From Sphingomonadales bacterium (lineage in GTDB: Bacteria; Pseudomonadota; Alphaproteobacteria; Sphingomonadales; Sphingomonadaceae), in assembly GCA_017309275.1 (NCBI GenBank), contig JAFKLT010000075.1, forward strand, positions 1 to 42,544: a stretch of 42,544 nucleotides of DNA. Direction: 5' to 3'. Positions 17,157 to 38,895 of this stretch are shown in pieces. The notes beneath the pieces are model-generated. The model saw nothing but the letters and a program-made list of their open reading frames with translations. It searched no databases and was not told where the DNA came from. Position numbers and translations under genes: made by a program. Every line of letters begins with the position of its first letter. The stretch's first letter is position 1.

Positions 17157-17164
17157 CGCCCGGT

Positions 17165-17953: not shown

Positions 17954-17962
17954 AATCTGTCC

Positions 17963-21140: not shown

Positions 21141-21185
21141 GCGTTGGATATAATTTTTAGGACAAGTGTCCTTATAATGCAATTG
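21141..21185 (-). promoter_or_regulatory. Promoter with operator AGGACAAGTGTCCT for the Rieske/P450 operon
   Basis: The perfect 14-bp palindrome AGGACA-AG-TGTCCT lies at 21159-21172. On the minus strand, a TTGCAT -35-like element is followed after 17 nt by TAAAAA (4 of 6 to the -10 consensus). The palindrome fills the spacer just before the -10 element, a classic repressor position. The same GGACA-N2-TGTCC core occurs at five other promoter regions of the island. It would allow the Rieske/P450 operon to be induced separately from the upstream CrtC-like/SDR/kinase genes. Confidence 0.6.
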
Positions 21186-21189
21186 GCAA

Positions 21190-21450
21190 TTAGCGGGGCG
21201 GTCGCGCTTTCGCCGTTTCGACGATCCGCATGTCAAAGGCGGCCAGTTCCTCGAGTGCCGCAAGGTCGGTTGCGCCCGCCAGCGCCGCCGGCGGGGCGCC
21301 GACGGCCAGCGTGGCGGCGCTCATCTCGTGCAACGTTGCCAATGCCACGGTTTCGGCGCGCGAGAGCGCGGGGCCGTCCGCACGGGCGCGAAGCTCGCGC
21401 GCGGCGGCCTGCGACAGGCAGCGCACCAGTTCAGAGAGTAAAGTCGTCAT
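21190..21450 (-). CDS. Small protein next to kinase gene, possible LvaB-like partner
   Basis: An 86-residue, Ala/Leu/Glu-rich, probably all-helical protein without a motif I can name. It overlaps the 3' end of the APH-type kinase gene by 20 nt, so the two are made together. In the levulinate pathway of Pseudomonas, the kinase LvaA needs a small partner protein, LvaB, encoded directly after it. The same order here suggests an equivalent pair. The sequence itself does not prove homology, and it is shorter than LvaB as I remember it (about 110 residues). It could also be an unrelated small protein. Confidence 0.55.
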   Translation of the reverse strand: MTTLLSELVRCLSQAAARELRARADGPALSRAETVALATLHEMSAATLAVGAPPAALAGATDLAALEELAAFDMRIVETAKARPPR

Positions 21451-22441
21451 TTTCGAAGCTCCGGACAGCGCGGACGAGGTCGTGATGAAGCCGGCCGATC
21501 AGCGGCAGCGGACGCACGCCGGTAAGCCGGCCGCGGCCCTGCGCGAGCCGCGCCATCGCGCGGACCATCAGGCACAGTTCGCCGAAAATGGCGAGGATGC
21601 GAAAATAGGCGGCGGCGCGAAGGTCCAGCGGGGTCCCTGTCAGATCGAGCCAGGCATCGGCCAGTTCCTGTTGGGTCAGCACCCCGCAGATATGATCGCC
21701 GATCTTCATGCCGGGAAGGCAGAGGAAGCCGAGGTCGTGGAGCGGGTGCCCCTCCATCGCGCGTTCCCAATCGAGCAGCGCCGCAATGTCGCCGCCGTCG
21801 AACACCGCATTGCCGAGGCGGAAGTCGCCGTGACACAGGACGGTGGGGGCCTCCATCGACGGCAGGCGCGATACCAGCCAGTCGTGCACGACCCGGATCG
21901 TCGGCGGGAGCGCGAGGACCCCGTCCGCCGCTTCCTCGACCTTCGCGACGAGATCGCCGAGATAGTCGGTGTATATCGCCTGCTGGGTCCGCGGACCGCG
22001 AGAGGCGAGGGCCAGGCGCGGCAGCGTCGACAACAGGCTGTGGCCGATGTCGATACGGTCGGTATCGGGCCGGTCCTTCAGCCATTCGCGCACCTCCCAC
22101 AGCGACGGGGAGTCGCCCTCGACCCGGCGCATCAGGATGAACTGCACGTCGCCTTCGTGGTGCACGCCGACCAGCGCGGGCGCGGGGACCCCGGCCGCTT
22201 CGGCCTGCGCCATCATCGCGGCTTCGTGCTTTACGTCATAGGGCGCGAGTGGGCCGTCGGGCTGGGCGATCTTGACCACCAGGTCGCGGGCGGGGTCGCC
22301 GGTAAGCAGCCGCCAGGTGATGTGCGAATTGCCGCCGGAAAGCAGTTCATAGTCCAGGATGGCATCGGCGGGCACGGCATCGTGCCGGCGGGCCAAAATT
22401 TCGATCGCCTGCGCGACCGGTTCAGGGGGGCGAGCCGACAT
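21431..22441 (-). CDS. APH-family kinase, LvaA/ACAD10-11 kinase-domain type
   Basis: A 336-residue kinase-fold protein. The N-terminal nucleotide-binding lobe has LSGGNSHITWRL. The catalytic loop is LCHGDFRLGNAVFD, and the metal loop ALLDWERAMEGHPLHDLGFL follows. The HGDxRLGN...LDWExAxxGxPLxDL pattern is characteristic of the ACAD10/ACAD11 kinase domain and of LvaA. LvaA phosphorylates the 4-hydroxyl of 4-hydroxyvaleryl-CoA so that an acyl-CoA-dehydrogenase-like enzyme can remove it. A similar step on a hydroxyacyl-CoA from the unknown substrate is therefore likely. The start overlaps the SDR stop (TGATG), and the end overlaps the small gene at 21190. Confidence 0.82.
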   Translation of the reverse strand: MSARPPEPVAQAIEILARRHDAVPADAILDYELLSGGNSHITWRLLTGDPARDLVVKIAQPDGPLAPYDVKHEAAMMAQAEAAGVPAPALVGVHHEGDVQFILMRRVEGDSPSLWEVREWLKDRPDTDRIDIGHSLLSTLPRLALASRGPRTQQAIYTDYLGDLVAKVEEAADGVLALPPTIRVVHDWLVSRLPSMEAPTVLCHGDFRLGNAVFDGGDIAALLDWERAMEGHPLHDLGFLCLPGMKIGDHICGVLTQQELADAWLDLTGTPLDLRAAAYFRILAIFGELCLMVRAMARLAQGRGRLTGVRPLPLIGRLHHDLVRAVRSFENDDFTL

Positions 22442-23238
22442 CAGCCGCGCCCGAAAGCGGTTTCGGGAACGAGGTTCCCGGTGTGAACGAACCCGCCGTC
22501 GGCGACGATCACCTCGCCCGCGATGAACGCCGCGGCGTCGGAGAGGAGGAAGACGATCGTATCGGCGATCATCTGCGGCGTCGCCCACATGCGCAGCGCA
22601 TTGCCTTGGGCGGCGGCGTCCATGAAGGCCTTGTCTTCGGTTGCCGCGCCCCACATTTCGGTGGCGACAAGGCCCGGAGCGACAGCATTGACGCGAATGC
22701 CGTGGGGACCAAGTTCGCGTGCGAGCGCCCGCGTCATTGCGTCGACGGCGCCCTTGGTCGAGGCGTAGGCGATCTGGTGCGGCGTTCCGACCGCGCCCTG
22801 CACCGACGAAAGGTTGACGATCGCGCCGCGACGGCGCTCCTTCATCGCTTCGCCGAGTGCGATCGCGATCAACATCGGGGCCCGGACATTCACCGCGAAG
22901 TGACGGTCGATCTCTTCCTCGGTAAAGCGCTTGCTTGCCTTCACCTGGCCGAAGCCGGCGCAGTTGACGAGGCCGTCGACATCGCCGGTTTCGAGCGCCT
23001 GTCGCGCCAGCTTGTCGGCTGCGCCCGCTTCATCGAGCGCCGCGGGCAATACAATGCTTCCGGGCAGGTCGGCGCTGAGCGCCGCGAGCTTTGCCTCGTC
23101 GCGTCCCGACGCCAGCACGCGCGCGCCGACGGCAGCGAGGGCGCGCGCGGTCGCGGCGCCGATGCCCGAGGTCGCGCCGGTCACAAGGATCGTGCGGCCG
23201 GCGAGCAGGTCGGCGTTGAAGGTGGGATGGCCGGTCAT
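22441..23238 (-). CDS. Short-chain dehydrogenase/reductase (SDR)
   Basis: A 265-residue classical SDR with TGATSGIG at about residues 20-27, VNCAG at 91-95, NLSSVQG with the catalytic serine, and Tyr158/Lys162 in YASTK. SGRD after the second strand suggests NADP(H) preference. It lies between the CrtC-like gene (overlapping starts/stops) and the kinase gene, so it should act on the same intermediate, perhaps reducing or oxidising the hydroxyl that the kinase later phosphorylates (inferred). The ATG at 23238 is chosen because a longer frame to 23418 would lie inside the upstream gene. Confidence 0.9.
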   Translation of the reverse strand: MTGHPTFNADLLAGRTILVTGATSGIGAATARALAAVGARVLASGRDEAKLAALSADLPGSIVLPAALDEAGAADKLARQALETGDVDGLVNCAGFGQVKASKRFTEEEIDRHFAVNVRAPMLIAIALGEAMKERRRGAIVNLSSVQGAVGTPHQIAYASTKGAVDAMTRALARELGPHGIRVNAVAPGLVATEMWGAATEDKAFMDAAAQGNALRMWATPQMIADTIVFLLSDAAAFIAGEVIVADGGFVHTGNLVPETAFGRG

Positions 23239-24281
23239 TTCCAACGTGCCTTGGCGGGCAGCGTGTCGGGGTTCTGCTTCAGCGCCTCGAAGATCGCTTC
23301 GACCGAAAGATCGGGGTCGGTCTTGCGCGCATGGCGGACGATGCGCTGCATTTCGGGAATGTCCCAGTGCCACATGCACTCGCCATAGCCGGTTTTGCCG
23401 CGCCAGCGCGGGACGCAATAGTGCATGACGGTAATGCCGTTCGATCCCTGATCCTGCGTGATCGCATAGCTTGTGTCGGCTTCGATCTCGTGCGTCTCGC
23501 CGGTTTCGTCCTCCAACTCATAGCGGAGGCTTTCGGTCAGGAAGCCCTTGCGCTGATAGCTGACCTCTGCCCGCTTCACGCGGCGCAGGTCGCGGCCGAG
23601 GAGGATATAGGCGCCGCTGACCGCGGCCTTGCCGAACGGCGTTTCGAGCGCCTGCGCGGAGAAGCTCATTTCCTCGCCGAAGTGCAGATTGTCGAACGTG
23701 CCGGGCAGGCTGTTGAACTCGGCGCGCGGACTCCACGACTGGTCGCGGTTCGAGACGCAGTCGACATCATAGCGGTCGCCGTCCATCCAGAGCTCGCCGC
23801 GCACCCTGAAGGTCTGGTCGATATGGCCGGTCGGCACGCCGACGCCGGAGTCGCGGTGAAAGGCGGCGAAACCGGCGGGGCCATCGGGCAGCGTCGTGAA
23901 TTCGAGGTCGGCCGGCGGCATCAGCGCCTCATATTCGAGATTGAGGTGTATCCGCTTGCAGCGCGACACGAATTTGACGGTGTATTTCTCGGGCGCCGGA
24001 TGACCCTTGTAGGACAGCCCGCTGGTCAGCGAGAAGTCCGAATAGCGATCGGTCGACGCGAGCGGGACGTGCATCTGGCTGTCATAGAAATCCATGTCGA
24101 GCAGATCGCCGCCGCGCGAGTAGATGTTCACCATATGATAGACGACTTCCTGATTGACCCGGAAGGCCGCGCGGACATGGCCGCGGATGCCGTGCTCGGG
24201 CACCCAGAAACCAAACCAGCTCGTCTCGAGCCAGCGGTTGTCGCGGAAGGCGGGGCGGTGGAAGTCCGACCACTCGTTCAT
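23235..24281 (-). CDS. CrtC/AttH-like lipocalin-fold protein (DUF7064/7065 type)
   Basis: A 348-residue protein with no signal peptide. The motif NRDQSWSPR (residues about 180-190) matches the RDxSWxxR signature of a family related to hydroxyneurosporene synthase (CrtC) and AttH, built of two beta-barrel halves. CrtC adds water to an isoprenoid double bond, and fungal relatives catalyse pericyclic ring closures; most bacterial members are uncharacterised. The start at 24281 follows GGGAGAG by 6 nt. It is the first gene of the minus-strand operon, and the palindrome at 24302-24313 lies just 20 nt before the start. A hydratase or isomerase role on a terpenoid-like molecule is plausible but unproven. 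Confidence 0.7.
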   Translation of the reverse strand: MNEWSDFHRPAFRDNRWLETSWFGFWVPEHGIRGHVRAAFRVNQEVVYHMVNIYSRGGDLLDMDFYDSQMHVPLASTDRYSDFSLTSGLSYKGHPAPEKYTVKFVSRCKRIHLNLEYEALMPPADLEFTTLPDGPAGFAAFHRDSGVGVPTGHIDQTFRVRGELWMDGDRYDVDCVSNRDQSWSPRAEFNSLPGTFDNLHFGEEMSFSAQALETPFGKAAVSGAYILLGRDLRRVKRAEVSYQRKGFLTESLRYELEDETGETHEIEADTSYAITQDQGSNGITVMHYCVPRWRGKTGYGECMWHWDIPEMQRIVRHARKTDPDLSVEAIFEALKQNPDTLPAKARWK

Positions 24282-24301
24282 CAGATGCTCTCCCAATATT
24301 C

Positions 24302-24313
24302 GGACACTTGTCC
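24302..24313. promoter_or_regulatory. Operator GGACACTTGTCC upstream of the CrtC-like gene
   Basis: A perfect 5-bp-arm palindrome with a 2-bp centre. Read on the minus strand it is GGACAAGTGTCC followed by GAATATT. These 19 nt are identical to the sequence before the acyl-CoA ligase gene (27553-27571). It lies 20 nt upstream of the CrtC-like start codon, and on the other side faces the TonB receptor promoter. Confidence 0.6.
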
Positions 24314-24425
24314 CTATTTCGATTCACTAGCGAAAGTGATTGACGATGTCCAGTCGTGCGTCGGTCGATAAAAAACGGCGGATTTCCTTCATATAATGCA
24401 CCATATTGCGTTTTGTGACGGGGTC

Positions 24426-24460
24426 TTGACAGGTCGTCCTTCAATTTAATACATATGTCC
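24426..24460 (+). promoter_or_regulatory. Promoter of the TonB receptor gene with degenerate operator
   Basis: A perfect -35 hexamer TTGACA (24426-24431) is followed by an 18-nt spacer and TACATA (24450-24455). Overlapping the -10 is ATACA-TA-TGTCC (24449-24460), which keeps the right arm of the island palindrome exactly and has two mismatches in the left arm. A repressor bound here would block the polymerase directly. It lies about 50 nt upstream of the receptor start codon. Confidence 0.5.
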
Positions 24461-24510
24461 CAATCACTCCGCCAGAGAGCGGCATGATATTGGATAGGGA
24501 GGACGGCTTC

Positions 24511-26706
24511 ATGGCAAAATCATATCATCAAATTCTCCGTTGCGGGGTGGCTCTTGGCGTTCTCTTCACGCCGCTCGCCGCGCATGCGCAGGACGAGTCG
24601 GCGTCGCCGGTTCCGGCCGCGCAGGGGGAGGATGACGCCGGGCCGCTCGGTGAGATCATCGTCACTGCGAACCGTCGCGCGACGAACCTGCAAAATACGG
24701 CGCTCTCGATCACCGCGATCGGCGGCGATGCGCTCGAAACGCAGGGCATCAATGACACGATCGCGCTGCAGCAGGTTACGCCGGGCCTGACCTTCAACCA
24801 GAACAGCAGCTTCGCGCAGCCCTATATCCGCGGGATCGGGACCGACATCACGACGCCGGGCAGCGAGTCGAGCGTCGCCACCTTCATCGACGGCGTGTAT
24901 CAGCCCTTTCCGTTCGTCGGCGTCCAGGTGCTGAATGCGATCGAGTCGATCGAGGTTCTGAAGGGGCCGCAGGGCACGCTTTACGGTCGCAACGCGACGG
25001 GCGGCGCGATCAACGTCCAGACGCGCAATCCCGACAAGGATTTCGTCGCCGAGGGCGATTTCAGCTATGGCAATTTCGACGCCAAGCTTGGGCGCATCTA
25101 TGTCTCGGTTCCGCTCGGTGACAATCTGGCGTTCAACGTTGCCGGCGCGATCAGCTCGCGCGATGGCTATGGCACCAACCTCACCACGGGCGAGGATTAT
25201 AACCGCGAAAATTACAAATATATCCGGGCCAAGCTGCGCTGGAATCCGACCGACACGCTCGAGGTGTTGCTGTCGGGCTATTATTTCCGTCGCAACGACG
25301 ATTCGAACATGGCCTATACCTATGACCCGCGCTGGGGTTCGATCCCGGCGCCGGGCGCGTTCGGCGGCAATGTGTCGTTGCTGTCCCACGACGTCTACAC
25401 CGCCTATCCGCTGATCAACCGTATCCGCGATTATGGCGGTAACCTGCGCTTCAATCTGGATGTCGGGCAGGGGACGCTCACGTCGATCACGGCCTTCCAG
25501 CGCGCTCGTGCCTTCATCGGTCCCGATTTCGTATCGACCGACGTGCCGATCTTCGATTTCCAGGCGGTCGATACCGGCCGGAATTTCTCGCAGGATCTTT
25601 ATTATTCGGGCGATTTCGGCGACGCGAGCGTTGTCGTCGGCGGCACTTATGCAAAGGCGTCGGCGCGGTTCGATCCGCTGCTGGTCCTGCTTGGCACGAC
25701 ACCGGCGACCAACTCGTACCAATATATCGATACCCAGGCGTTCGCCGCCTATGGCGAACTCACCTACAAGCTGACCGACCGTTTCTCGGTCACCGGCGGC
25801 ATCCGCTATTCGAACGAGAAGAAGACGCAGGATCGCCTCGACACCTATCTGACCGACGGCACGCAGATCGTCTCGACCCCGCGGTCGTCGCGGTCGTGGG
25901 ACAATGTGTCCTTCAAGGCGCTCGCGCAATATGACCTCGGCGATGCGATGCTCTATGCGAAGTTCGAAAGCGGCTTCAAAAGCGGATCGGTCGTCGCGGC
26001 CGAGCCCGGCCTCTATATCGAGCCCGAGACGATCGATTCTTTGGAAGTGGGCCTGAAGTCCGAATGGCTCGACCGCACGCTGCGCTTCAATCTCGCCGGC
26101 TTCTATTACAGCTACAAGAATGTGCAGGTCCAATATACCGATACGACGACCGGCCAGGCGCTGGTGGAATCGGCGGACAAGGCGCGTATCTGGGGCATCG
26201 AGGGGCAGTTGACGGCGGCGCCGAGCGATAATTTCACCTTCAACCTCGGCTTCACCTATCTCAATTCGCGCTACACCGATTTCATCAGCAGCGGTGCCTT
26301 CGTCCCGAACACGGTCCTCGTCGGACCCGGTGTTCCCGGGAACGGCAATGTGACGCTCGACGTCGCAGGCAACGACCTGGTCCGCTCGCCGCCGATCACG
26401 ATCAGCACCGACGTGAACTGGAAGATTCCGTTCGCGAACGGAAGCAGCCTCAACAATTCGGCGTCGCTCTATTTCTCCGACTCCTATTTCTTCGAGGTGA
26501 CGAACCGGACCCGGCAGAAAGCTTATGCGGTCGCCGGCGCGCAGATCCGGTATGACTTCGCGGGCGACAAATTTTCGATCGCGGTGTTCGGGCGCAACCT
26601 TACCAATACGCGCTATCTGACCAGTCTTGCGCCGAACAGCTTCGGCGATGCCGGCCAGCTCGCGCCGCCGCGTACCTATGGCGTGACGCTGTCGGCCAAA
26701 TATTGA
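24511..26706 (+). CDS. TonB-dependent receptor (outer membrane), catabolic island
   Basis: A 731-residue receptor. The start at 24511 follows AGGGAGG by 7 nt and gives a clean signal peptide (MAKSYHQILRCGVALGVLFTPLAAHAQ); an upstream ATG at 24484 would bury it. A TonB-box-like stretch (GEIIVTANRRATNLQ) and a plug with PYIRGIGTDITTPGSESSVATFIDGVYQ and IEVLKGPQGTLYGRNATGGAINVQT follow, then the barrel ending in SAKY. Receptors of this size next to aromatic or terpenoid degradation genes in sphingomonads are thought to import hydrophobic substrates. It heads the plus-strand half of the regulon; an SDR gene follows, nearly overlapping. Confidence 0.92.
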   Translation: MAKSYHQILRCGVALGVLFTPLAAHAQDESASPVPAAQGEDDAGPLGEIIVTANRRATNLQNTALSITAIGGDALETQGINDTIALQQVTPGLTFNQNSSFAQPYIRGIGTDITTPGSESSVATFIDGVYQPFPFVGVQVLNAIESIEVLKGPQGTLYGRNATGGAINVQTRNPDKDFVAEGDFSYGNFDAKLGRIYVSVPLGDNLAFNVAGAISSRDGYGTNLTTGEDYNRENYKYIRAKLRWNPTDTLEVLLSGYYFRRNDDSNMAYTYDPRWGSIPAPGAFGGNVSLLSHDVYTAYPLINRIRDYGGNLRFNLDVGQGTLTSITAFQRARAFIGPDFVSTDVPIFDFQAVDTGRNFSQDLYYSGDFGDASVVVGGTYAKASARFDPLLVLLGTTPATNSYQYIDTQAFAAYGELTYKLTDRFSVTGGIRYSNEKKTQDRLDTYLTDGTQIVSTPRSSRSWDNVSFKALAQYDLGDAMLYAKFESGFKSGSVVAAEPGLYIEPETIDSLEVGLKSEWLDRTLRFNLAGFYYSYKNVQVQYTDTTTGQALVESADKARIWGIEGQLTAAPSDNFTFNLGFTYLNSRYTDFISSGAFVPNTVLVGPGVPGNGNVTLDVAGNDLVRSPPITISTDVNWKIPFANGSSLNNSASLYFSDSYFFEVTNRTRQKAYAVAGAQIRYDFAGDKFSIAVFGRNLTNTRYLTSLAPNSFGDAGQLAPPRTYGVTLSAKY

Positions 26707-26717
26707 CGGGGCTGGTC

Positions 26718-27488
26718 GTGGGGGGACGTCTCGACGACCGGGTCGCACTGATCACCGGCGCAAGCTCGGGGATAGGTGCGGCCATCGCCCGGCGGTTTGC
26801 GGCTGAAGGCGGCCGCCTGATCGTCGCCGGCCGCGACGCGGACGGCCTCGACCGCCTGGCCGAAGAGCTCGGCCCGTCCGTCCGTCCGCTGGTCCTCGAC
26901 GTGACGCTGGCCGAGGATTGGTCCGCCGCCTGCGCCTTCGTGCTGGCGATCGAGGCGCGGCTCGACATTCTGGTCAACTGTGCGGGCGCCGGGGTCGAGG
27001 GCAATATCGAGACGCTGGACGCGGAAAGCTGGCGCAGCGGCATGGCATTGAACTGCGACAGCGTTTTCCTAGGGACGCAGGCGATGCTGCCGGCGCTCCG
27101 TCGAACCGCCGCGCCATCGGCGTCGGTCATCAATATCGCGTCGGTCGGCGGGCTTCGTCCGCAGGCCGGCTGGCTCGCCTATTGCACCGCAAAGGCGGCG
27201 GTCATCCAGATGACGCGCTGCATCGCCTTGCACGGGGCGACGCTGTCGCCGCCGCTGCGCGCGAACAGCCTGTGCCCCGGCGTGACCGAGACGCCGCTGT
27301 TCGACGCCTATGTCGACCAGTTCGGAAGCCGCGAGGCGACGCTGGCGGCCTTTGCGAAAGCGACCGCGCTGAAGCGTGTCGCGCAGCCCGAAGAGATCGC
27401 CGGCCTCGCGCTCTATCTGGCGTCGGACGAGGCTGGCTTCGTCACCGGCACCGAATATCTGATCGACGGAGGATCGGCATTGCTCTGA
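26718..27488 (+). CDS. Short-chain dehydrogenase/reductase (SDR)
   Basis: About 256 residues with TGASSGIG near the N-terminus, AGRDADGL (NADP-type region), VNCAGAG, the serine in NIASVGG and the Tyr/Lys pair in YCTAK. It ends with the usual C-terminal FVTGTEYLIDGGS. The start is uncertain: a TTG at 26703 overlaps the receptor stop, and a GTG at 26718 has GACGGGG a few nt upstream and gives the usual short lead-in; the latter is used here. It is probably co-transcribed with the TonB receptor gene. Substrate unknown; an alcohol/ketone step on the imported compound is likely. Confidence 0.87.
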   Translation: MGGRLDDRVALITGASSGIGAAIARRFAAEGGRLIVAGRDADGLDRLAEELGPSVRPLVLDVTLAEDWSAACAFVLAIEARLDILVNCAGAGVEGNIETLDAESWRSGMALNCDSVFLGTQAMLPALRRTAAPSASVINIASVGGLRPQAGWLAYCTAKAAVIQMTRCIALHGATLSPPLRANSLCPGVTETPLFDAYVDQFGSREATLAAFAKATALKRVAQPEEIAGLALYLASDEAGFVTGTEYLIDGGSALL

Positions 27489-27552
27489 CCTGCGCGCGTA
27501 TTGGCGCGGGTCCGGGCAACAGGGCGATTGCCAGCTGCGAAAATGCATATTA

Positions 27553-27564
27553 GGACAAGTGTCC
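27553..27564. promoter_or_regulatory. Operator GGACAAGTGTCC upstream of the acyl-CoA ligase gene
   Basis: A perfect palindrome with a 2-bp centre, preceded by A and followed by GAATATT. It begins 37 nt upstream of the ligase start codon (27590). The 19 nt from the palindrome on match the minus-strand sequence before the CrtC-like gene exactly. A separate promoter for the ligase operon is implied, although no convincing -35 box was found. Confidence 0.6.
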
Positions 27565-27589
27565 GAATATTTGTGGAAGAAGGATTCGC

Positions 27590-29146: not shown

Positions 29147-29552
29147 CGCGCCGTTGCTTCGGCGTCCGGCATGGTCGGTACGGCTGCCGGTGGATCCTGA
29201 ATATGCCGGGCTTCGGCATGTGGGAAACCTGGAGTTCGCGCGCCTGTTTCAGGAGGCGCGGCTCGGCTTCAGCCGGTATCTGGTCGGCCGGATGCAGGGG
29301 GTACAGCATTTCGGCGACCAGATGATCGTCCACATCAGCATGGATTTCGCCCGCGAGATCCTCTGGAGCCCCGATATCGAGGTCCATGTTCGCGTGGGGA
29401 ATATCGGCCGGTCTTCCTACGAACTCGATCTGAGTATCTGGGACGGCGACACGGTGGCGGTGCGCTCGAAGACCGTCAATGTCTGGATGGAGGACGACGC
29501 ACCCGCCCCGATCAATGACGAGGCGAGGGCGCTGCTGGTCGCCTCCCGATAA
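29130..29552 (+). CDS. Hotdog-fold acyl-CoA thioesterase
   Basis: About 140 residues of the 4-hydroxybenzoyl-CoA thioesterase type. VDPEYAGLRHVGNLEFARLFQEARLGF corresponds to the usual D...GHVNNxxYxxxFExAR signature; one Asn of the NN pair is Gly here. The fold has a long central helix followed by beta strands. Such enzymes hydrolyse acyl-CoA thioesters, often to recycle CoA from dead-end intermediates. The ATG at 29130 has AAAGGA 5 nt upstream; another ATG at 29124 is in frame. It overlaps the ligase gene, so both are coupled. Confidence 0.78.
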   Translation: MPTVSDAPLLRRPAWSVRLPVDPEYAGLRHVGNLEFARLFQEARLGFSRYLVGRMQGVQHFGDQMIVHISMDFAREILWSPDIEVHVRVGNIGRSSYELDLSIWDGDTVAVRSKTVNVWMEDDAPAPINDEARALLVASR

Positions 29553-29633
29553 AGCAGGACAAGGCAGGCGAAGCATGGGGCCCGGGCATTATCCGATGCC
29601 CTTCGCATGCCGCGCCGCGCTGAAAGGTGGAAC

Positions 29634-30764
29634 ATGGAATTTCAACTGTCTGATCTGCAGCGCGAGCTGGTCGAGGGCGTCGAACGCTATCTTCGCGATG
29701 CTGCGACGCCGGAGGCGGCGCGCGCCTCGCTCGATCGCGAGCCCCACGGTTATGATCGCGAACTCTGGCGGGGGCTGGCTTCGCTCGGCGTGACCGGGCT
29801 CTCCATCGGCGAGGCTTATGGAGGCATGGGCCTTGGCGACCTGGAACTGGGTTTCGTCGCGGAATGCGCGGGCCGCTTTCTCGTGCGCGCGCCGCTGGGG
29901 TCGACGATATGGCGCTCGGCGGCGGCGATCGAATTGCTCGGCAGCGAGGCACAGAAAGAGCGGTGGCTGACGAAAATTGCGGCTGGCGACATTGCCGTTG
30001 CCTATGTCGATGTCGCCGCGCACGCGTTCGCCGAACCTGAGATCGCGGGCGGCCGCCTGACGGCCCGCTTCTCGGTCGTCGCGGATGCGATGGCGGCAGA
30101 CCTGTTCGTCGTCGTTGCGCCCGGCGGCGCATGGCTGATCGAGGCCGAGGATGAAGGCGTCGCGCGCACGGCGCTCGAAACATTCGATCTTCTGCAGCCG
30201 AGCGCCGACGTCGCGCTGACGGGCGCGACGGCGGAACCGATGGGCGCCGCGGCGGAGCCGATGGGCGCCGCGGCGGAGCCGATGGGCGAGCGCGACGTGC
30301 GGGATGCCATCCGGTTCCTGCGACAGCGGGCGGCCGTGCTCACGGCATTCGAACAGGTCGGCATGTGTCAGGCCGCGATCGATGGGGCGGTCGCCTATGC
30401 CAAGGAAAGATACGCCTTCGGGCGCGCGATCGGGTCGTTCCAGGCGGTCAAGCATCTGCTCGCCGACATGTATGTCAAAATGGAGATCGCCCGGTCGAAC
30501 AGCTATTATGCGGGCTGGGCGCTGGCGACGCGCGATGCGAACCTGACGGCCGCCGCCGCCGCGGCGCATTTGTCCGCGACCGACGCGCTGCGCCACTGTG
30601 CCGCCAACGCGATCCAGGTTCATGGCGGGATCGGCTTCACCTGGGAACTCGATTGCCACCTTCGCTATCGCCGCGCGCACCATCTTGCGCTCCAGTCGGG
30701 GCCGGCGCGCCTTTGGCAGGATGATCTGATCGACGCGCTCGCCCGGCAGAGGGAGGCCGCCTGA
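29634..30764 (+). CDS. Acyl-CoA dehydrogenase, subunit of a probable heteromeric pair (1)
   Basis: A 376-residue acyl-CoA dehydrogenase. The flavin-contact stretch YAFGRAIGSFQAVKHLLADMY and the C-terminal QVHGGIGFTWELDCHLRYRRAH are present. The middle domain is short and lacks the usual TEP/WITN-type flavin motifs; in their place, at about residue 200, is a 7-residue repeat (AEPMGAA, nearly three copies). A second dehydrogenase gene follows with a 1-nt overlap (TGATG). Adjacent, co-translated pairs form alpha2-beta2 enzymes in steroid side-chain degradation (ChsE/FadE types), with one full flavin site per pair. The start at 29634 follows AAGGTGG. Confidence 0.88.
   Translation: MEFQLSDLQRELVEGVERYLRDAATPEAARASLDREPHGYDRELWRGLASLGVTGLSIGEAYGGMGLGDLELGFVAECAGRFLVRAPLGSTIWRSAAAIELLGSEAQKERWLTKIAAGDIAVAYVDVAAHAFAEPEIAGGRLTARFSVVADAMAADLFVVVAPGGAWLIEAEDEGVARTALETFDLLQPSADVALTGATAEPMGAAAEPMGAAAEPMGERDVRDAIRFLRQRAAVLTAFEQVGMCQAAIDGAVAYAKERYAFGRAIGSFQAVKHLLADMYVKMEIARSNSYYAGWALATRDANLTAAAAAAHLSATDALRHCAANAIQVHGGIGFTWELDCHLRYRRAHHLALQSGPARLWQDDLIDALARQREAA
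30231..30287 (+). repeat. 21-bp in-frame tandem repeat (AEPMGAA) inside acyl-CoA dehydrogenase gene
   Basis: About 2.7 copies of a 21-bp unit encoding AEPMGAA (30231-30251, 30252-30272, 30273-30287). Copies two and three are identical over the shared 15 nt, and copy one differs by one base (GAA for GAG). The near identity suggests recent expansion by slippage. It falls in the linker between the middle and C-terminal domains. Confidence 0.85.
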
Positions 30765-31969
30765 TGGATTTTTCGGACAACGCCCGCGATGCCGCCTTTC
30801 GCGCGGAGGCGCGCGCCTGGCTCGATGCCAATCGCCCGGTCGAACTGGCGCCGCAACTTGCCGAACTCGGGTTCGCGCCGAACAGCCTGCGCGATGCCGA
30901 CCTGCTTGCGGAATCGCGCAAATGGCAACGCCGCAAGGCCGACGCCGGATGGGCGTGCATCCACTGGCCCGGCGCCTATGGCGGCCGCGACGCGTCGCCG
31001 GTCGAGCGGATCATCTGGAAACAGGAAGAGGGGATTTACGCCAATCTCTCGCACCTGTTCTTCATCGGTCAGAATATGTGCGGGCCGACGCTGATCGACC
31101 ATGCGACCGAAGAGCAGAAGCGTCGTTACCTGCCGCCGATCGTTTCGGGCGATGAAATCTGGTGCCAGCTCTTTTCCGAGCCGACGGCGGGATCGGATCT
31201 CGCGGCGGTTCAGACGCGCGCCGTGCGCGACGGCGACGACTGGGTCGTCAACGGGCAAAAGGTCTGGACCAGCGGGGCGCATTTCTCGAACTTCGGCCTG
31301 TTGCTTGCGCGGACCGATCCCACCGTCGCCAAGCATCAGGGGCTGACCATGTTCTTCCTCGATATGGCATCGCCGGGCATCGACATCCGGCCGATCCGCC
31401 AGGCCGACGGCGGCGCCGAATTCAACGAGGTGTTCTTTGCCGATGTGCGCATTCCCGACAGCCAGCGGCTGGGCGCGCCGGGCGAAGGCTGGAAGGTGGC
31501 GCTTGGCACCCTGATGAACGAACGGCTTTCGCACGGCACCGGTATGCCGACGGGCTTTCCCGAACTGCTCGATCTTGCCCAGTCCGATCGCGCGGGCGGG
31601 CGACCGATCGACGATCCGGCAGTCCGCGCGAAGCTTGCCTCGCTGGCGGTTCGTGAAAGCGGTCTGCGGCTGACCGGGCTGCGGCTGGTCGGGGGACTGA
31701 AACGCGGCGAGGCGCCCGGTCCCGCCAGTTCGATCGGCAAGCTGGTCGCGGGACCGATGATGCAGGAGGTCGCCGCGCTGGCGATCGAGATGCAGGGGGC
31801 GATGGGCGTGGTGTCCGAATATGGAAAGGCCGAGGCCGCGGCGCGATTCCAGACGATGCTGCTCCGTTCGGCGGCGACGCGGATCGAGGGCGGGACCGAC
31901 GAAATATTGAGGAACATCATCGCCGAGCGCGTTTTGGGGCTTCCGCCCGAACCACGTGTTGACAAATAG
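30764..31969 (+). CDS. Acyl-CoA dehydrogenase, subunit of a probable heteromeric pair (2)
   Basis: A 401-residue acyl-CoA dehydrogenase with a complete middle domain: QLFSEPTAGSDLAAVQTRAVRDGDDWVVNGQKVWTSGAHFSNFGLLLART carries the flavin/substrate-binding motifs missing from its partner. The C-terminal part has RIEGGTDEILRNIIAERVLGLP. It begins on the last base of the preceding gene. Homologues in cholesterol and bile-acid degradation are arranged the same way. The pair should introduce an alpha-beta double bond into the CoA ester of the unknown substrate. It could alternatively take part in removal of a phosphorylated hydroxyl, as LvaC does. Confidence 0.9.
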   Translation: MDFSDNARDAAFRAEARAWLDANRPVELAPQLAELGFAPNSLRDADLLAESRKWQRRKADAGWACIHWPGAYGGRDASPVERIIWKQEEGIYANLSHLFFIGQNMCGPTLIDHATEEQKRRYLPPIVSGDEIWCQLFSEPTAGSDLAAVQTRAVRDGDDWVVNGQKVWTSGAHFSNFGLLLARTDPTVAKHQGLTMFFLDMASPGIDIRPIRQADGGAEFNEVFFADVRIPDSQRLGAPGEGWKVALGTLMNERLSHGTGMPTGFPELLDLAQSDRAGGRPIDDPAVRAKLASLAVRESGLRLTGLRLVGGLKRGEAPGPASSIGKLVAGPMMQEVAALAIEMQGAMGVVSEYGKAEAAARFQTMLLRSAATRIEGGTDEILRNIIAERVLGLPPEPRVDK

Positions 31970-31989
31970 GACGCGCGTCTCGTTATGGT
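31959..31989 (+). promoter_or_regulatory. Promoter of tetR with a weak operator-like palindrome
   Basis: TTGACA (31959-31964), overlapping the end of the acyl-CoA dehydrogenase gene, is followed by TATGGT (31984-31989) after a long 19-nt spacer, or by GTTATG after 17. Inside the spacer is GGACG-CG-CGTCT (31969-31980), whose core GACGC/GCGTC is a perfect palindrome and which resembles a degenerate form of the island operator. Autoregulation is plausible, but the site differs in both inner half-site bases. Confidence 0.4.
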
Positions 31990-31998
31990 TGCGTGACG

Positions 31999-32034
31999 GG
32001 AGTGCAAAGCACGCAAAGGCGTGTTAGGCACTCC
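31999..32034 (+). other. Two-step hairpin upstream of tetR
   Basis: Outer arms GGAGTGC (31999-32005) and GCACTCC (32028-32034) are perfectly complementary. Inner arms CACGC (32010-32014) and GCGTG (32019-32023) are also complementary, with an AAAG loop. AAAG and TTAG form a symmetrical internal loop. It lies in the probable tetR leader, 36 nt before the start codon, and has no T-run. It could control translation, act as a weak terminator of the upstream operon, or stabilise RNA. Confidence 0.55.
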
Positions 32035-32069
32035 GTGGCTCGCAAGAATATGGACGAAGATCGGACGCG

Positions 32070-32696
32070 ATGACGGTAAATCCCAAACCCAGCCTGCTAG
32101 ATCCCAATGATCTCAGTCCCAATCAGCTCGCCAAGCGCAAGAAGATCATCCAGGCCGCCGGCCGGGTAATGGTGCGCGACGGTATCGCGGCGTGCACGGC
32201 ACGATCGGTTACGGCCGAAAGCGGCATGTCGACTTCGGCGATGCATTATTATTTCAGCGATACCGACGAGATTCTCGATCTGGCGTTCCGCTCGGTGATG
32301 GAGGGCTTTCTCGATCTCATCGAAAGCGCGGCGGCGCGGCATGAAAATCCTGTTCGCGCCCTGTGGGCGGCGGCGAATGCCTATTTCGAACGGTCGAGCG
32401 ACAGTATCCGCGCGACCGGCGAGCATGGCGAACAGCACGCTCCGATGATCTGGTTCGAATTTCACGCGCAGAGTCTGCGCACCGGAAACATCACAACGGT
32501 GAAGGAATTGTCCGACCGCGGTTCGGCCTTTTTCCAGACCCTGCTCGAACGGTGCGACGTCGAGGCTCCGCAACAGAAGGCAGAGACGCTGTACTGCGCC
32601 CTGCTCGGCGCGGCGGTCCGCGATTCGCTTTCGCGCCGTCCAACCTCCGAGTGGGTGGCCTCTCTCTTTGCCGCGCTGGCTCTGCCGTTGCCGTAA
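32070..32696 (+). CDS. TetR/AcrR-family regulator, probable master repressor of the catabolic island
   Basis: A 208-residue TetR protein. The helix-turn-helix covers KKIIQAAGRVMVRDGIAACTARSVTAESGMSTSAMHYYFSDTDEIL (about residues 24-69). The ligand domain includes WFEFHAQSLRTGN, which may form part of the effector pocket. It is the only regulator encoded inside the catabolic island, and lies between promoters that carry the palindrome GGACA-N2-TGTCC. TetR proteins typically bind 10-20-bp palindromes overlapping promoters, so it is the best candidate for the binding protein. The inducer is probably a CoA ester or the substrate itself (inferred). The ribosome-binding site is weak. Confidence 0.88.
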   Translation: MTVNPKPSLLDPNDLSPNQLAKRKKIIQAAGRVMVRDGIAACTARSVTAESGMSTSAMHYYFSDTDEILDLAFRSVMEGFLDLIESAAARHENPVRALWAAANAYFERSSDSIRATGEHGEQHAPMIWFEFHAQSLRTGNITTVKELSDRGSAFFQTLLERCDVEAPQQKAETLYCALLGAAVRDSLSRRPTSEWVASLFAALALPLP

Positions 32697-32717
32697 AACC
32701 GGGCATTTCACTCGATA

Positions 32718-32729
32718 GGACGCTTGTCA
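32718..32729. promoter_or_regulatory. Weak operator GGACGCTTGTCA upstream of the thiolase gene
   Basis: It matches the island palindrome with one mismatch per arm (GGACG and TGTCA). It lies 35 bp centre-to-centre upstream of the better site at 32753-32764, just after the tetR stop. It could be an auxiliary site. Confidence 0.35.
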
Positions 32730-32740
32730 CAAAAATCGGG

Positions 32741-32769
32741 TTGCAAATTTAAGTACACTTGTCCTAATT
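32741..32769 (+). promoter_or_regulatory. Promoter with operator GTACACTTGTCC for the thiolase operon
   Basis: GTACA-CT-TGTCC (32753-32764) matches the island operator with one mismatch. TTGCAA (32741-32746) as -35 and CCTAAT (32763-32768) as -10 are separated by 16 nt, with the operator between them. The layout matches the Rieske promoter. It implies the thiolase, ferredoxin, SDR and HisD-like genes start from their own promoter rather than only reading through from tetR. Confidence 0.5.
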
Positions 32770-32827
32770 AACTGGACAGTCGTACTGAATGTGCTGCCGA
32801 CTGATTTTTGGGACGAGGAGCGAACGA

Positions 32828-34000
32828 GTGGAAGCCTATATTGTCGAGGCGTTGAGGACGGCTGGCGGTCGGCGGAACGGCCGATTGCGCGACTGGCATC
32901 CTTCGGATCTGGCGGGCCGGGTGATCGATGCCGTCGTCGATGGCAGCGGCATAGACCCCGCTGCGGTCGAGGACGTCGTCATGGGCTGCGTCAGCCAGGC
33001 CGGCGAGCAGAGCTTCCACATCGGCCGCAACGCGGTCCTCGCTTCGAGGCTGCCGCAAAGCGTGCCCGCGGTCACCATCGACCGCCAGTGCGGTTCGTCG
33101 CAGCAGGCGATCCAGTTCGCGGCGCAGGCGGTGATGTCGGGAACGCAGGACGTCGTTCTTGCGGCGGGCGTCGAATCGATGACCCGCGTGCCGATGGGGC
33201 TCCCCACCAGCCTTGCCGCACGGGCCGGGATCGGCGTCGGTCCCTGGTCGGACAGGGTGAAACAGCGGTTCGGCGTCGATGGCTTCAGCCAGTTCGTCGG
33301 CGCCGAGATGATCGCCGAGAAATACGGCCACAGCCGCGAGGCGCTCGACCGCTTCGCGCTGTCGAGCCACGAAAAGGCGGTTGCGGCGACCCGCGCCGGC
33401 GCGTTCGAGCGCGAGATCGTGCCGATCGAGGTCGCGGGCGCCGACGGGGCGAGCGAACTGCACATCGCCGACGAAGGCATTCGCTATGACGCGACGCTTG
33501 AGAGCATCGGTGCGGTCAAGCTGGTGCAGGAGGGCGGGCGGATCAGCGCGGCGAATGCCAGCCAGATCTGCGACGGCGCCTCTGCGGTTCTGGTGGTCAA
33601 CGAACGCGCGCTGAAGGCGCATGGCCTGACTCCGCTGGCGCGCATCCACAATCTGACCGTGACCGCGGGCGACCCGGTGATCATGCTCGAGGAGCCGATT
33701 CCGGCAACGCGCCGCGCGCTCGAACGCGCGGGCATGTCGATCGCCGACATCGACCTTTACGAGGTCAACGAAGCGTTTGCGCCGGTGCCGCTGGCCTGGC
33801 TGGAGGCGATCGGTGCCGATCCCGATCGTCTCAACGTCAATGGCGGCGCGATTTCGCTCGGGCATCCGCTCGGGGCGTCGGGAACCAAATTGATGGCCAC
33901 GCTCGTCCATGCGCTTCGCGCACGCGGCAAGCGCTACGGACTCCAGACGATGTGCGAGGGCGGCGGCATTGCCAACGTCACCATCGTCGAAGCGCTCTGA
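32828..34000 (+). CDS. Acetyl-CoA acyltransferase (thiolase)
   Basis: A 390-residue thiolase. The nucleophile Cys88 is in IDRQCGSSQQA, the NEAFAPVPLAW segment is conserved, the histidine lies in GGAISLGHPLGASGTK, and the second active cysteine in TMCEGGGIAN near the C-terminus. It performs thiolytic cleavage of a 3-ketoacyl-CoA to a shortened acyl-CoA. The GTG start at 32828 follows GAGGAG by 7 nt and matches the usual VEAYIVEALRT opening of FadA-type thiolases; a longer frame from 32789 adds an atypical tail. It is the first gene of the third plus-strand operon, with ferredoxin 10 nt downstream. Confidence 0.94.
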   Translation: MEAYIVEALRTAGGRRNGRLRDWHPSDLAGRVIDAVVDGSGIDPAAVEDVVMGCVSQAGEQSFHIGRNAVLASRLPQSVPAVTIDRQCGSSQQAIQFAAQAVMSGTQDVVLAAGVESMTRVPMGLPTSLAARAGIGVGPWSDRVKQRFGVDGFSQFVGAEMIAEKYGHSREALDRFALSSHEKAVAATRAGAFEREIVPIEVAGADGASELHIADEGIRYDATLESIGAVKLVQEGGRISAANASQICDGASAVLVVNERALKAHGLTPLARIHNLTVTAGDPVIMLEEPIPATRRALERAGMSIADIDLYEVNEAFAPVPLAWLEAIGADPDRLNVNGGAISLGHPLGASGTKLMATLVHALRARGKRYGLQTMCEGGGIANVTIVEAL

Positions 34001-34010
34001 GGAACCGACC

Positions 34011-34328
34011 ATGGCGAAAATTTTTGTGACCGGCGCCGACGGCGTCGAGCGGGCGATCGAGGCCGAGGATGGCGGCAACCTGATGGAGGCGCTGCGCGAT
34101 AACGGGTTCGAGGAACTGGCGGCGCTTTGCGGCGGCTGCTGCGCCTGCGCGACCTGTCACATCTATGTCGACCCCGACTGGATGGCGCAGGTGGGGACGC
34201 CGACGGGCGACGAGGACGATCTGCTCGACAGTTCGGACGCGCGCGCGGCCAATTCGCGACTGAGCTGCCAGATTCCGGTCGGGCCGGAGATCGAGGGCAT
34301 GCGCGTCACGATCGCGCCGATGGATTGA
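34011..34328 (+). CDS. 2Fe-2S ferredoxin, putidaredoxin/adrenodoxin type
   Basis: A 105-residue ferredoxin. The cluster cysteines follow the C-x5-C-x2-C...C pattern (LCGGCCACATC and a later Cys in RLSCQIPV). Two extra cysteines lie inside the loop (CGGCCAC). Proteins of this type carry electrons from an FAD reductase to P450s and some Rieske oxygenases. Placement in an operon away from the P450 and Rieske genes, but under the same operator motif, suggests it serves one or both. No ferredoxin reductase is encoded in the window, so a reductase from elsewhere must supply it. Confidence 0.93.
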   Translation: MAKIFVTGADGVERAIEAEDGGNLMEALRDNGFEELAALCGGCCACATCHIYVDPDWMAQVGTPTGDEDDLLDSSDARAANSRLSCQIPVGPEIEGMRVTIAPMD

Positions 34329-34340
34329 GGGAGACGGGAC

Positions 34341-35123
34341 ATGTTGTTGAACAAGGATGTGGCGGCGGTCGTCGTCGGCGGTGCGTCGGGGCTGGGCGCC
34401 GCGACTGCGCGGGCGCTCGCGGCGCGCGGGGTAAAGGTCGGTATCTTCGATCTCAATGCCGAGCTGGGTGAAGCGCTGGCGGCCGAAATCGGCGGCGCCT
34501 TCGCGCGCGTCGATGTCCGCTCCGACGCCGATGTCGCCGCCGGTTTCGCGGCGGTCCGCGCGGTCAACGGGCAGGAGCGCATTTTGGTGAACTGCGCCGG
34601 CGTCGGCGATGCGATCAAGACGGTCGGCCGCGACAAGCAAAGCGGCGAGGTGAAGGTCTTCCCGATCGAGACCTTCGTTCGCACGATCGATATCAACCTC
34701 ATCGGTACCTTTCGCTGCGTCGCGGCATCGGCGGCGGGGATGCTGACCCTCGATCCCCTGGAGCATGGCGAACGCGGGGCGATCGTCAACACCGCGAGCG
34801 TCGCGGCGGAGGATGGCCAGATGGGCCAGGCGGCCTATTCGGCGTCGAAGGCGGGCGTTGTCGGCATGACCTTGCCGGTCGCGCGCGACCTGATGGGGGA
34901 GGGGATTCGGGTGAACACGATCCTGCCCGGCATCTTCGATACGCCGCTGCTGGGGACGCTTCCCGAACATGTGCGCGGTGCGCTTGCGGCGTCGGTGCCC
35001 TTTCCGAAGCGTCTCGGCGATCCGACCGATTACGCGGCGCTGGCCGTCCACCTGATCGAGAACGGCTATTTCAACGGAGAGGATATCCGCCTCGACGGCG
35101 GTATCCGCATGGCTGCCCGCTGA
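34341..35123 (+). CDS. SDR, 17-beta-HSD10 / 3-hydroxyacyl-CoA dehydrogenase type II-like
   Basis: A 260-residue SDR with GGASGLGAATARALAARGVKVGIFDLN (NAD-binding, acidic residue after strand two), LVNCAGVGDAIKT, the serine in NTASVAAEDGQMGQ, and YSASK. The DLN...DVRSDADV spacing and the VGDAIKTVGRDKQSG insertion are typical of the HSD10 group, which oxidises 3-hydroxyacyl-CoAs, often branched or cyclic ones. Encoded between the ferredoxin gene and the HisD-like gene, and in one operon with thiolase, it fits the beta-oxidation step before thiolysis. It is 12 nt from the ferredoxin gene. Confidence 0.9.
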   Translation: MLLNKDVAAVVVGGASGLGAATARALAARGVKVGIFDLNAELGEALAAEIGGAFARVDVRSDADVAAGFAAVRAVNGQERILVNCAGVGDAIKTVGRDKQSGEVKVFPIETFVRTIDINLIGTFRCVAASAAGMLTLDPLEHGERGAIVNTASVAAEDGQMGQAAYSASKAGVVGMTLPVARDLMGEGIRVNTILPGIFDTPLLGTLPEHVRGALAASVPFPKRLGDPTDYAALAVHLIENGYFNGEDIRLDGGIRMAAR

Positions 35124-35159
35124 CACCGGCAATCGCCGAATTTTGGGAGGGGTTGAGAT

Positions 35160-36476
35160 ATGGCGCGCATATTGAAGCAGGGCGCAGCGACCGCGGAGCG
35201 AGGCAATGTCGACCGGCAGGTACGTGAAACGGTGGAGAAAATTCTCGCCGACGTCGAAGCGCGCGGCGACGATGCGGTCCGCGAATTGTCGATCCGTTTC
35301 GACGGTTGGGACCGCGACAGCTATCGACTGACCGACAGCGAGATCGATCAATGCATCGCCTCGCTGAGCGAGCAGGATCGCAGGGATATCGCCTTCGCGC
35401 AGGAACAGGTGCGCGGCTTTGCCGAAATCCAGCGCAGATCGATGGTCGACGTCGAGGTCGAGACTTTTCCGGGCGTGGTGCTCGGCCATCGCAATATCCC
35501 GGTGAATGCGGCGGGGTGCTATGTTCCCGGCGGCAAATATCCGCTCCTCGCCTCGGCGCACATGAGCGTGATCACCGCGAAGGTCGCCGGTGTGAAGCGC
35601 GTCGTCACCTGCGCGCCGCCTTTTCAGGGAAAGCCCGCCGCCGCGATCGTCGCGGCGCAGGCGATGGCCGGCGCGGATGAAATCTACTGCCTCGGCGGTG
35701 TGCAGGCGATCGCGGCGATGGCGGTGGGGACGCCCGGCATCGCTCCCGTCGATATGCTCGTCGGACCGGGCAACGCCTATGTCGCCGAAGCGAAGCGCCA
35801 GTTGTTCGGGCGCGTCGGGATCGACCTGTTCGCGGGGCCGACCGAGACGCTGATCATCGCCGACGAGACGGTCGACGGCGAACTCTGCGCGACCGACCTC
35901 CTGGGGCAGGCCGAGCATGGTCCCGACAGCCCGGCGATCCTCCTCACGACGTCGGAGCAGCTCGCGCGGGATACGATGCGCGAGGTGGACCGGCTCCTGA
36001 CGATCCTGCCGACCGCCGACCATGCCGGGCGCGCCTGGCGCGACTATGGCGAGGTGATCGTTGCCGACGATATTGACGAAATGGTGCGCATTGCTGACGA
36101 AATCGCGTCGGAACATGTTCAGGTCATGACCGCCGATCCGGACTATTTCCTTGAAAACATGTCGAATTACGGCGCTCTATTTCTAGGTCCTCGGACAAAT
36201 GTCGCCTACGGAGACAAAGTAATCGGCACCAACCACACCCTGCCGACGCGCAAGGCCGCGCGGTACACCGGTGGACTGTGGGTCGGGAAATTCCTGAAAA
36301 CCTGCACATATCAGCGTGTCCTAACCGACGAAGCGTCGACGATCATGGGTAGCTACTGCAGCCGTTTATGTGCGCTTGAGGGTTTCGCGGGGCATGGTGA
36401 GCAGGCGAACGTCCGCGTGCGGCGGCACGGAGGGCAGAATGTCCCCTATGCCGGCGCAGCTGAGCCGGTCGCGTGA
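35160..36476 (+). CDS. Histidinol-dehydrogenase-like NAD-dependent alcohol dehydrogenase
   Basis: A 438-residue HisD-fold protein. The metal-binding region [14 protein letters not shown], the Glu/His pair in ASEHVQVM, the [11 protein letters not shown] segment, and [31 protein letters not shown] are all present, with a late His in [10 protein letters not shown]. True HisD oxidises histidinol to histidine, but no histidine gene is nearby and the NxxNYGALF and [11 protein letters not shown] variants point to the HpsN-type branch, which oxidises other primary alcohols to acids. Here it probably oxidises a hydroxymethyl group of the substrate or a side-chain alcohol. It is the last gene of the thiolase operon. 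Confidence 0.87.
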
Positions 36477-36501
36477 GAGAGGGCCATAGTAGCGGCGGCA
36501 A

Positions 36502-36545
36502 TTGACCGTTATGGCCAATTGTCCTAATGATAAGGACAAATGTCC
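36502..36545 (+). promoter_or_regulatory. BVMO promoter with tandem operators
   Basis: Two copies of the island palindrome lie exactly 21 bp (two helical turns) apart: GGCCA-AT-TGTCC (36513-36524, one mismatch) and GGACA-AA-TGTCC (36534-36545, perfect arms). A promoter TTGACC (36502-36507) with AATGAT (36526-36531) after an 18-nt spacer overlaps the first site. Tandem same-face sites suggest cooperative binding of two dimers. It lies about 100 nt upstream of the BVMO start, leaving a long leader. Confidence 0.6.
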
Positions 36546-38577: not shown

Positions 38578-38895
38578 CGGCGTGCCGGTCGACGCGGTGG
38601 GCTTGCAATGAAGGCGCGAGCATCCGCCTTCAGCGTGGCTGCTGCCGGATCGCGGCGGGTCTCGACCTATGGTCTACGCTCCCGCTTCCAATTTACGCGC
38701 GTAGGACGGAAAGCTTCTGCATGCGCGAACCGGGCCCACAAACCTATTCGAAGTCTCGGTTCGGCCGACATGTCTTCGACGAAGCAAATCTCAGCTTTTC
38801 AATGCTGACGACCAAAAGTGGACCGTCCCCAGCCGGCTATTCGTCGACAAGCTCGCGTGTATGAGAGGTGCTGGGAGACGAATGACATCGTATAG
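38578..38895. other. Intergenic region, no gene recognised
   Basis: About 320 nt between the BVMO stop and the palindrome of the next operon. No coding region with supporting features was found. It contains CCAAAAGTGGACCGTCC (about 38811-38827), similar to CCAAAAGCGGACGTGCG near the window end, and an inverted repeat TCGAAG/CTTCGA around 38748-38779 with a long loop. No T-run terminator is evident after the BVMO gene. Confidence 0.4.

Follow-up and report, generated by a model that had tools for sequence, protein, structure and literature searches.

Does a short palindrome that recurs in front of neighbouring catabolic operons tie them into one regulon, and which protein would bind it? The question is raised by contig JAFKLT010000075.1 of a Sphingomonadales bacterium, where copies of GGACA-N2-TGTCC lie ahead of operons with genes for oxygenases, a TonB-dependent receptor and a CoA ligase. 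We analyzed the entire contig (C81, 42,544 bp, from here on the window) together with the rest of the genome (5.1 Mb, 121 contigs). Gene models are mechanical open reading frames (ORFs) with Pfam support and predicted starts. The palindrome is found at the promoters of the cluster and hardly anywhere else in the genome. It is well supported that the palindromes are operators of one regulator, which would tie the operons into one predicted regulon. The regulator is probably the TetR-type protein encoded at 32070, a candidate by its location and by the core marking TetR genes elsewhere.

A palindrome at the promoters of one gene cluster

Eight copies had been listed in an earlier, sequence-only reading of this DNA. 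All eight are where that reading placed them, the first being refined from 21159-21172 to 21160-21171. The copies at 21160, 24302, 27553 and 36534 are perfect, those at 32753 and 36513 have one mismatch and those at 24449 and 32718 have two. All are intergenic on the gene models used. Two further copies were absent from the list, a perfect one inside the Rieske gene (20583-20594) and one with a single mismatch inside the hisD-like gene (36193-36204). The latter was rejected as an operator: 38 background positions score as high, which is background level.

The window holds five of the eight perfect copies in the genome (binomial P = 2e-9) and 8 of the 68 copies with at most one mismatch (P = 1e-7). 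Since a reversed control pattern has 80 genome copies at the same stringency, the core is at background level outside the window. With two mismatches allowed, the window shows no enrichment of the bare core (18 copies, 14.1 expected; 17 of 100 shuffled sequences had as many). An extended form, TWN-GGACA-N2-TGTCC-NWA, separates the window more sharply. At up to one mismatch all seven genome copies lie in it, between 20580 and 36548, and the control pattern has none; the resulting P of 3e-15 flatters the pattern, because it was derived from the same sites, and a leave-one-out matrix test is fairer. At up to two mismatches there are 17 copies in the genome, 8 of them in the window, and 14 of the control. 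Among 298 genomes of the family, 61 carry at least one extended copy with at most one mismatch; the source genome has seven, the others have at most three.

We built the matrix from the four perfect intergenic sites with 4-nt flanks and scored the window and 454,199 bp from outside it in the same genome. Nine window sites beat the best background score (27553, 21160, 24302, 36534, 32753, 36513, 24449, 20583 and 32718), and the last five of these were outside the training set. Hence the motif is not equally frequent elsewhere in the genome. When the eight intergenic sites were left out of an eight-site matrix in turn, no background position scored as high as any of them. The test was made harder by a background that took in stretches picked for other copies of the core.

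Placement follows the same pattern. Eight of the nine high-scoring sites are intergenic, in the 5.1% of the region from 14.5 to 38.6 kb that lies between genes (P = 4e-10, a value partly built in, as intergenic sites served to train the matrix). Of the seven gaps over 60 bp in the region from 21 to 39 kb, five hold sites above background; in the gap after the Baeyer-Villiger-type monooxygenase (BVMO) gene (38578-38932) the matrix scan found no site. Beyond the core, the flanks of the eight intergenic sites are alike: counted outward from TGTCC, 14 of 16 arms have A at the third position and all 16 have A or T at the second. The site would be about 18 bp long, TWA-GGACA-N2-TGTCC-TWA. The earlier observation that two sites have 19 identical nucleotides holds for the 27553 site and the reverse complement of 24302, which share GGACAAGTGTCCGAATATT. 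No longer sequence is common to the sites apart from this one pair.

The palindromes might not be operators at all, and instead have arisen by chance or be terminator stems or copies of a small mobile repeat. The frequency of two-mismatch cores, no higher than in shuffles, would fit this explanation, and a perfect copy outside the window, C42:35445, resembles a terminator stem. The density of the sites, their placement in gaps, their symmetric flanks and their confinement to the island all speak against it, as does the lack of longer shared sequence apart from the one 19-nt pair. We regard it as extremely improbable. The three perfect copies outside the window were not taken as members of the regulon: C42:35445 is a GC-rich stem between runs of A and T, C48:77553 adjoins polysaccharide genes and C40:22952 is missing the full T/A arms.

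The eight intergenic sites head six operons, and the ninth site is the one in the Rieske gene. On the minus strand, 21160 heads the Rieske-P450-SDR-enoyl-CoA hydratase-hydrolase operon and 24302 the DUF7064-SDR-APH-like operon. On the plus strand, 24449 heads the TonB receptor and SDR genes, 27553 the CoA ligase, the thioesterase and the two acyl-CoA dehydrogenase genes, the pair 32718/32753 the thiolase, ferredoxin, SDR and hisD-like genes, and the pair 36513/36534 the BVMO gene. The tetR gene lies 100 bp beyond the 27553 operon, 3' of it and 5' of 32718/32753.

Some sites are spaced by whole helical turns. At 10.5 bp per turn this holds for 36513-36534 and 32753-32774 (21 bp each) and for 24302-24449 (147 bp); 32718-32753 (35 bp) is out of phase. 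The phasing is suggestive at most, because the pairs are few, the 32774 site is at background level and the 35-bp pair does not fit.

The site in the Rieske gene, 577 bp from 21160, is likely an auxiliary operator. Its core encodes W-T-N-V-R in the Rieske frame, a peptide that appears constrained because the W-T pair is partly kept in distant Rieske relatives. Random synonymous recoding, weighted by the codons used in 20 genes of the window, produced the core at 20583 in 35 of 3,000 trials (0.0175 per 20-gene set). The core includes the rare threonine codon ACA (5.8% of threonine codons), which the peptide constraint does not explain.

The candidate repressor and competing binders

What kind of protein binds such a core? 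We searched 84,980 species genomes for tandem copies and obtained at least 119 stretches. Among the 80 listed loci (L135-L214), a TetR helix-turn-helix lies no more than 400 bp from the tandem pair in 44, compared to 11 of 1,173 control positions in the same loci. The core can therefore be read as a TetR-type operator, a comparison that favours the protein class guessed in the sequence-only reading. The count of 44 leans slightly upward because the TetR model was retrained on earlier hits plus two loci added by eye (L153 and L159); the control was scored with the same model. The 44 TetRs beside these listed pairs all have helices that follow G[QR][GA]x.YR, a reusable rule that leads from operator to helix. 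We refer to these proteins as the GQGT-YR class, which is partly SbtR-like: the C-terminal domain PF21597 was found in two of five operator-associated TetRs tested. A literature text search for the literal pattern GGACANNTGTCC gave no match. The tandem core is spread over many phyla, and the remaining 36 listed loci lack a TetR at up to 400 bp; many of these belong to Lachnospiraceae and relatives and carry GGCGGACATTTGTCC-like pairs.

The protein encoded at 32070 has a TetR helix-turn-helix (PF00440, 27.9 bits; cut-off 24) with the recognition helix STSAMHYYF. Its C-terminal part matches TetR_C_31 at 14.2 bits, under the cut-off of 27.4, and a structure prediction made without an alignment gave a poor model (mean pLDDT 43). 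Its matches in the family, the genus and plasmids are at most 43% identical, the best of them confined to the helix-turn-helix, and none of five plasmid records covers 80% of the query. A contig scan that detects close relatives only matched 41 stretches, none of which was confirmed. The candidate repressor seems unusually divergent, while the kind of control would be ordinary.

We infer protein binding at the sites, the identity of the binder as this TetR, repression, the operon limits and the inducer; together they would work as follows. The palindromes would be the operators at which a dimeric repressor of the TetR type binds, and this repressor would most likely be the product of 32070-32696. 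Without inducer, it would sit at or near the six operon promoters and silence the genes for uptake and catabolism. Release would come from the substrate or one of its early metabolites, perhaps a CoA thioester. Should the 27553 promoter also transcribe tetR, then the repressor would control itself too.

Several findings weigh against this account. Two of the eight window copies with at most one mismatch lie inside genes (six are intergenic), and the gap directly ahead of tetR holds just a weak look-alike at 31969, which 22 or 10 background positions in 454 kb equal, depending on the matrix. Consensus promoter-like pairs are about as frequent as chance would make them (3 in 16.5 kb, 2.4 expected). 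The only one that overlaps a site is TTGACC-18-AATGAT at 36502-36531, overlapped by 36513 and just ahead of 36534, so the overlap of sites with -35/-10 pairs that the sequence-only reading saw at several promoters is weaker than claimed. The helix STSAMHYYF is unlike those of all 44 TetRs beside tandem copies of the core. No orthologue of the 32070 TetR was found in 298 family genomes, 80 genus genomes or the plasmid records. Finally, a TetR gene on contig C76 has a one-mismatch core, GGACATATGTTC, about 70 bp ahead of its ORF; such copies are at chance level, with two at up to one mismatch in the 52 TetR-gene loci of the genome and 2.0 expected. The assignment of the operators to the 32070 TetR thus stands on the location of the gene and the company that the core keeps elsewhere, with the deviating helix and the missing orthologue against it.

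Alternatively, the operators are real and bound by another regulator of the genome, a different TetR or a dimer outside the TetR family, and the tetR gene at 32070 is a passenger of its operon. The difference between its helix and the class found beside the core leaves room for this, as does the number of candidates: the genome has 39 TetR_N matches, 36 above the cut-off, including the gene at 5646-6287 of the window. The helix was read in 38 of the 39, and none has the GQGT-YR form. The nearest helices are GKAALYRRW (C101:232942), which is of the YR type, and SATALYRHF (C100:15209). Neither gene has a copy with at most one mismatch in the surrounding 3-4 kb, both contigs are free of extended sites at up to two mismatches, and the C101 protein has a TetR_C_11 rather than an SbtR-like C-terminal domain. 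A sub-threshold look-alike on C73, GIGRSTLYR, was rejected, being a sigma-54 activator with a Fis-type helix. In the matrix scan of the window, no above-background site lies near the genes for the other regulators, AraC 13660, TetR 5646 and HTH_34 39519. Another binder is an unlikely explanation. The TetR gene at 5646-6287 is on the plus strand and encodes the helix HITTLFTHF.

The same sites could also serve an activator or a dual regulator, as the data bear on the direction of control only indirectly and the promoter positions are guesses. Yet a dimer bound at 24302 or 27553, 20 and 25 bp from the start codons, would more likely block expression, and the nearest known analogue, KstR2, acts as a repressor at 22-39 bp (PMC3068626). 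Because of these two sites and this analogy repression is the likelier mode, and activation has very little probability.

A strong two-part hairpin, GGAGTGC..CACGC..GCGTG..GCACTCC, lies between the second acyl-CoA dehydrogenase gene and tetR (31990-32066), and its folding is far superior to that of shuffled sequence (z -4.3). It may set the share of the operon message that tetR receives. It is single-copy in the genome, and a repeat family was rejected.

Likeness to known TetR systems

A local TetR catabolic regulon is a kind of system already known from KstR2 and EdcR, and the cluster, with one operator type confined to its promoters, would be a regulon of this sort. KstR2 binds a 14-bp palindrome with an N2 centre, AnCAAGnnCTTGnT, has several sites 22-39 bp from starts and is under negative autoregulation (PMC3068626). 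Like the window with its candidate repressor, KstR2 and KstR (cholesterol catabolism in mycobacteria and rhodococci) combine a TetR-type repressor with an N2-centred palindrome whose copies occupy gaps within a local catabolic cluster (PMC3068626), and the distances of the 24302 and 27553 sites resemble those of several KstR2 sites (PMC3068626). In contrast, the half-site is another one, so that the window sites are GGACA-N2-TGTCC and not AnCAAGnnCTTGnT, and KstR2 has three sites per genome compared to nine here (PMC3068626). The 32070 TetR matches KstR2 chains with E = 0.004 in the DNA-binding part only. For EdcR of the estradiol cluster of Caenibius tardaugens, palindromes have been proposed at several promoters, with a weaker copy at that of EdcR itself (PMC8700777). 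In that system too a local repressor serves a sphingomonad-type steroid cluster (PMC8700777). The operator proposed there, TnnCnnTACnAnTnGTAnnGnnA, differs from the window consensus (PMC8700777).

The GQGT-YR class has the same 12-bp core as the window, often paired. It differs from the 32070 TetR in the helix (G[QR][GA]x.YR and not STSAMHYYF) and in its mostly C/G arms, compared to T/A arms in the window, and PF21597 was not found in the 32070 TetR. A closer parallel in the arms came from single extended copies in family genomes. At 1 of 20 loci inspected, a proportion that may be low since the first TetR model missed L153 and L159, AT-armed copies lie just upstream of a TetR gene. In this case (genome G153, L117:3960-4130) three AT-armed palindromes of the TTAGGACAATTGACCTAA/TTAGGnCAATTGnCCTAA type directly precede an LmrA/YxaF-like TetR with a YYHF-type helix. 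The inner position differs in most of its half-sites (GGTCA or GGGCA), and the protein is 27% identical to the 32070 TetR over 91 residues. T/A arms and a non-YR helix can thus go together, as this single case suggests.

We tentatively propose, as a rather speculative combination, that an orphan TetR reached the GGACA-N2-TGTCC core of the GQGT-YR class through a different helix, STSAMHYYF, that reads T/A arms, that the operator within the Rieske gene adds to the repression of the Rieske operon by DNA looping or as a roadblock, and that the BVMO operators, two turns apart, place two dimers on one face of the DNA.

Gene content of the cluster

The cluster looks built for the breakdown of a steroid- or terpene-like compound (Table 1). 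The solved structure nearest to the Rieske protein is the oxygenase of 3-ketosteroid 9alpha-hydroxylase. The P450 is nearest to CYP125-type and macrolide P450s and the BVMO to Baeyer-Villiger enzymes (OTEMO, cyclohexanone and steroid monooxygenases). Together with the thiolase, the CoA ligase and the two acyl-CoA dehydrogenases, these oxygenases suggest a polycyclic or terpenoid substrate, taken up via the TonB receptor. The BVMO carries an N-terminal extension of about 130 residues ahead of its flavin domain.

Table 1. Genes and palindrome copies of the window; operator roles are predicted.
Feature	Position	Strand	Remark
SDR, enoyl-CoA hydratase and alpha/beta hydrolase genes	16416..18745	-	same operon as Rieske-P450
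Cytochrome P450	18780..20114	-
Rieske oxygenase, KshA-like	20068..21051	-
Likely auxiliary operator, perfect core	20583..20594		within Rieske gene, offset 457 from gene start
Predicted operator, perfect core	21160..21171		108 bp ahead of Rieske-P450 operon start
DUF7064/DUF7065, SDR and APH-like genes	21431..24281	-
Predicted operator, perfect core	24302..24313		20 bp ahead of DUF7064-SDR-APH operon start
Predicted operator, 2 core mismatches	24449..24460		ahead of TonB receptor-SDR operon; 0 background matches when left out
TonB-dependent receptor and SDR	24484..27488	+
Predicted operator, perfect core	27553..27564		25 bp ahead of CoA ligase operon, then tetR
CoA ligase, 4HBT thioesterase, two acyl-CoA dehydrogenases	27590..31969	+
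Weak look-alike GGACGCGCGTCT, possible degenerate self-operator	31969..31980		gap ahead of tetR
TetR-type regulator, candidate repressor	32070..32696	+	208 aa; Pfam TetR_N 27.9 bits
Predicted operator, 2 mismatches	32718..32729		ahead of thiolase operon
Predicted operator, 1 mismatch	32753..32764		ahead of thiolase operon
Possible weak second half of pair	32774..32785		21 bp from 32753; 21 background positions as high
Thiolase, 2Fe-2S ferredoxin, SDR, histidinol-dehydrogenase-like (hisD-like)	32789..36476	+
Predicted operator, 1 mismatch	36513..36524		in spacer of promoter-like pair ahead of BVMO
Predicted operator, perfect core	36534..36545		21 bp from 36513, ahead of BVMO
Baeyer-Villiger-type monooxygenase (BVMO)	36643..38577	+

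In 13 of 297 other family genomes the BVMO has relatives with 57-64% identity, and their neighbours often include genes for a P450, a TonB receptor or a CoA ligase. Around 29 BVMO loci besides the window's own (L045-L073, at most 1.5 kb per side), the sole copy with at most one mismatch is a perfect core with GC arms (L070). The gene order of the island is not shared by 20 stretches of 15-20 kb around relatives of the BVMO or the TetR. In 384 other genomes of the class, the Rieske protein has matches at E = 1e-30 or better in 10, with just 26-34% identity. Since neither the TetR nor the Rieske protein has close relatives in the genomes searched, the island appears to be rarely sampled. Its GC content is that of its genome (64.5% in the window, 64.8% in 380 kb from the rest).

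The contig also carries genes outside the marked set. At its start (149-3061, plus strand) FAA hydrolase-like, acetaldehyde dehydrogenase and HMGL/DmpG-like aldolase genes form a meta-cleavage lower pathway set, with no operator there. Just beyond the marked operons, a gene of the linalool dehydratase/isomerase family (39884-41809, plus strand) follows the HTH_34 regulator gene, again with no operator ahead. The palindrome was said to mark the whole island. It marks six operons; the linalool dehydratase-like gene, AraC 13660 and the meta-cleavage-type genes have no above-background site. The same reading concluded that the island is one regulon and therefore one pathway. The first part is well supported by the confinement of the sites and by the matrix. 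The second does not follow from a shared regulon alone; a single pathway is plausible, and the uptake, ring-attack and CoA-degradation genes in the set fit one.

If a 24-kb run of operons forms one predicted regulon, then a single reporter could screen for its substrate. A compound that induces the repressor should be a pointer to what this oxygenase-rich cluster breaks down. The familiar operator core, together with an unfamiliar recognition helix, would allow a clean test of the way in which TetR proteins recognize DNA.

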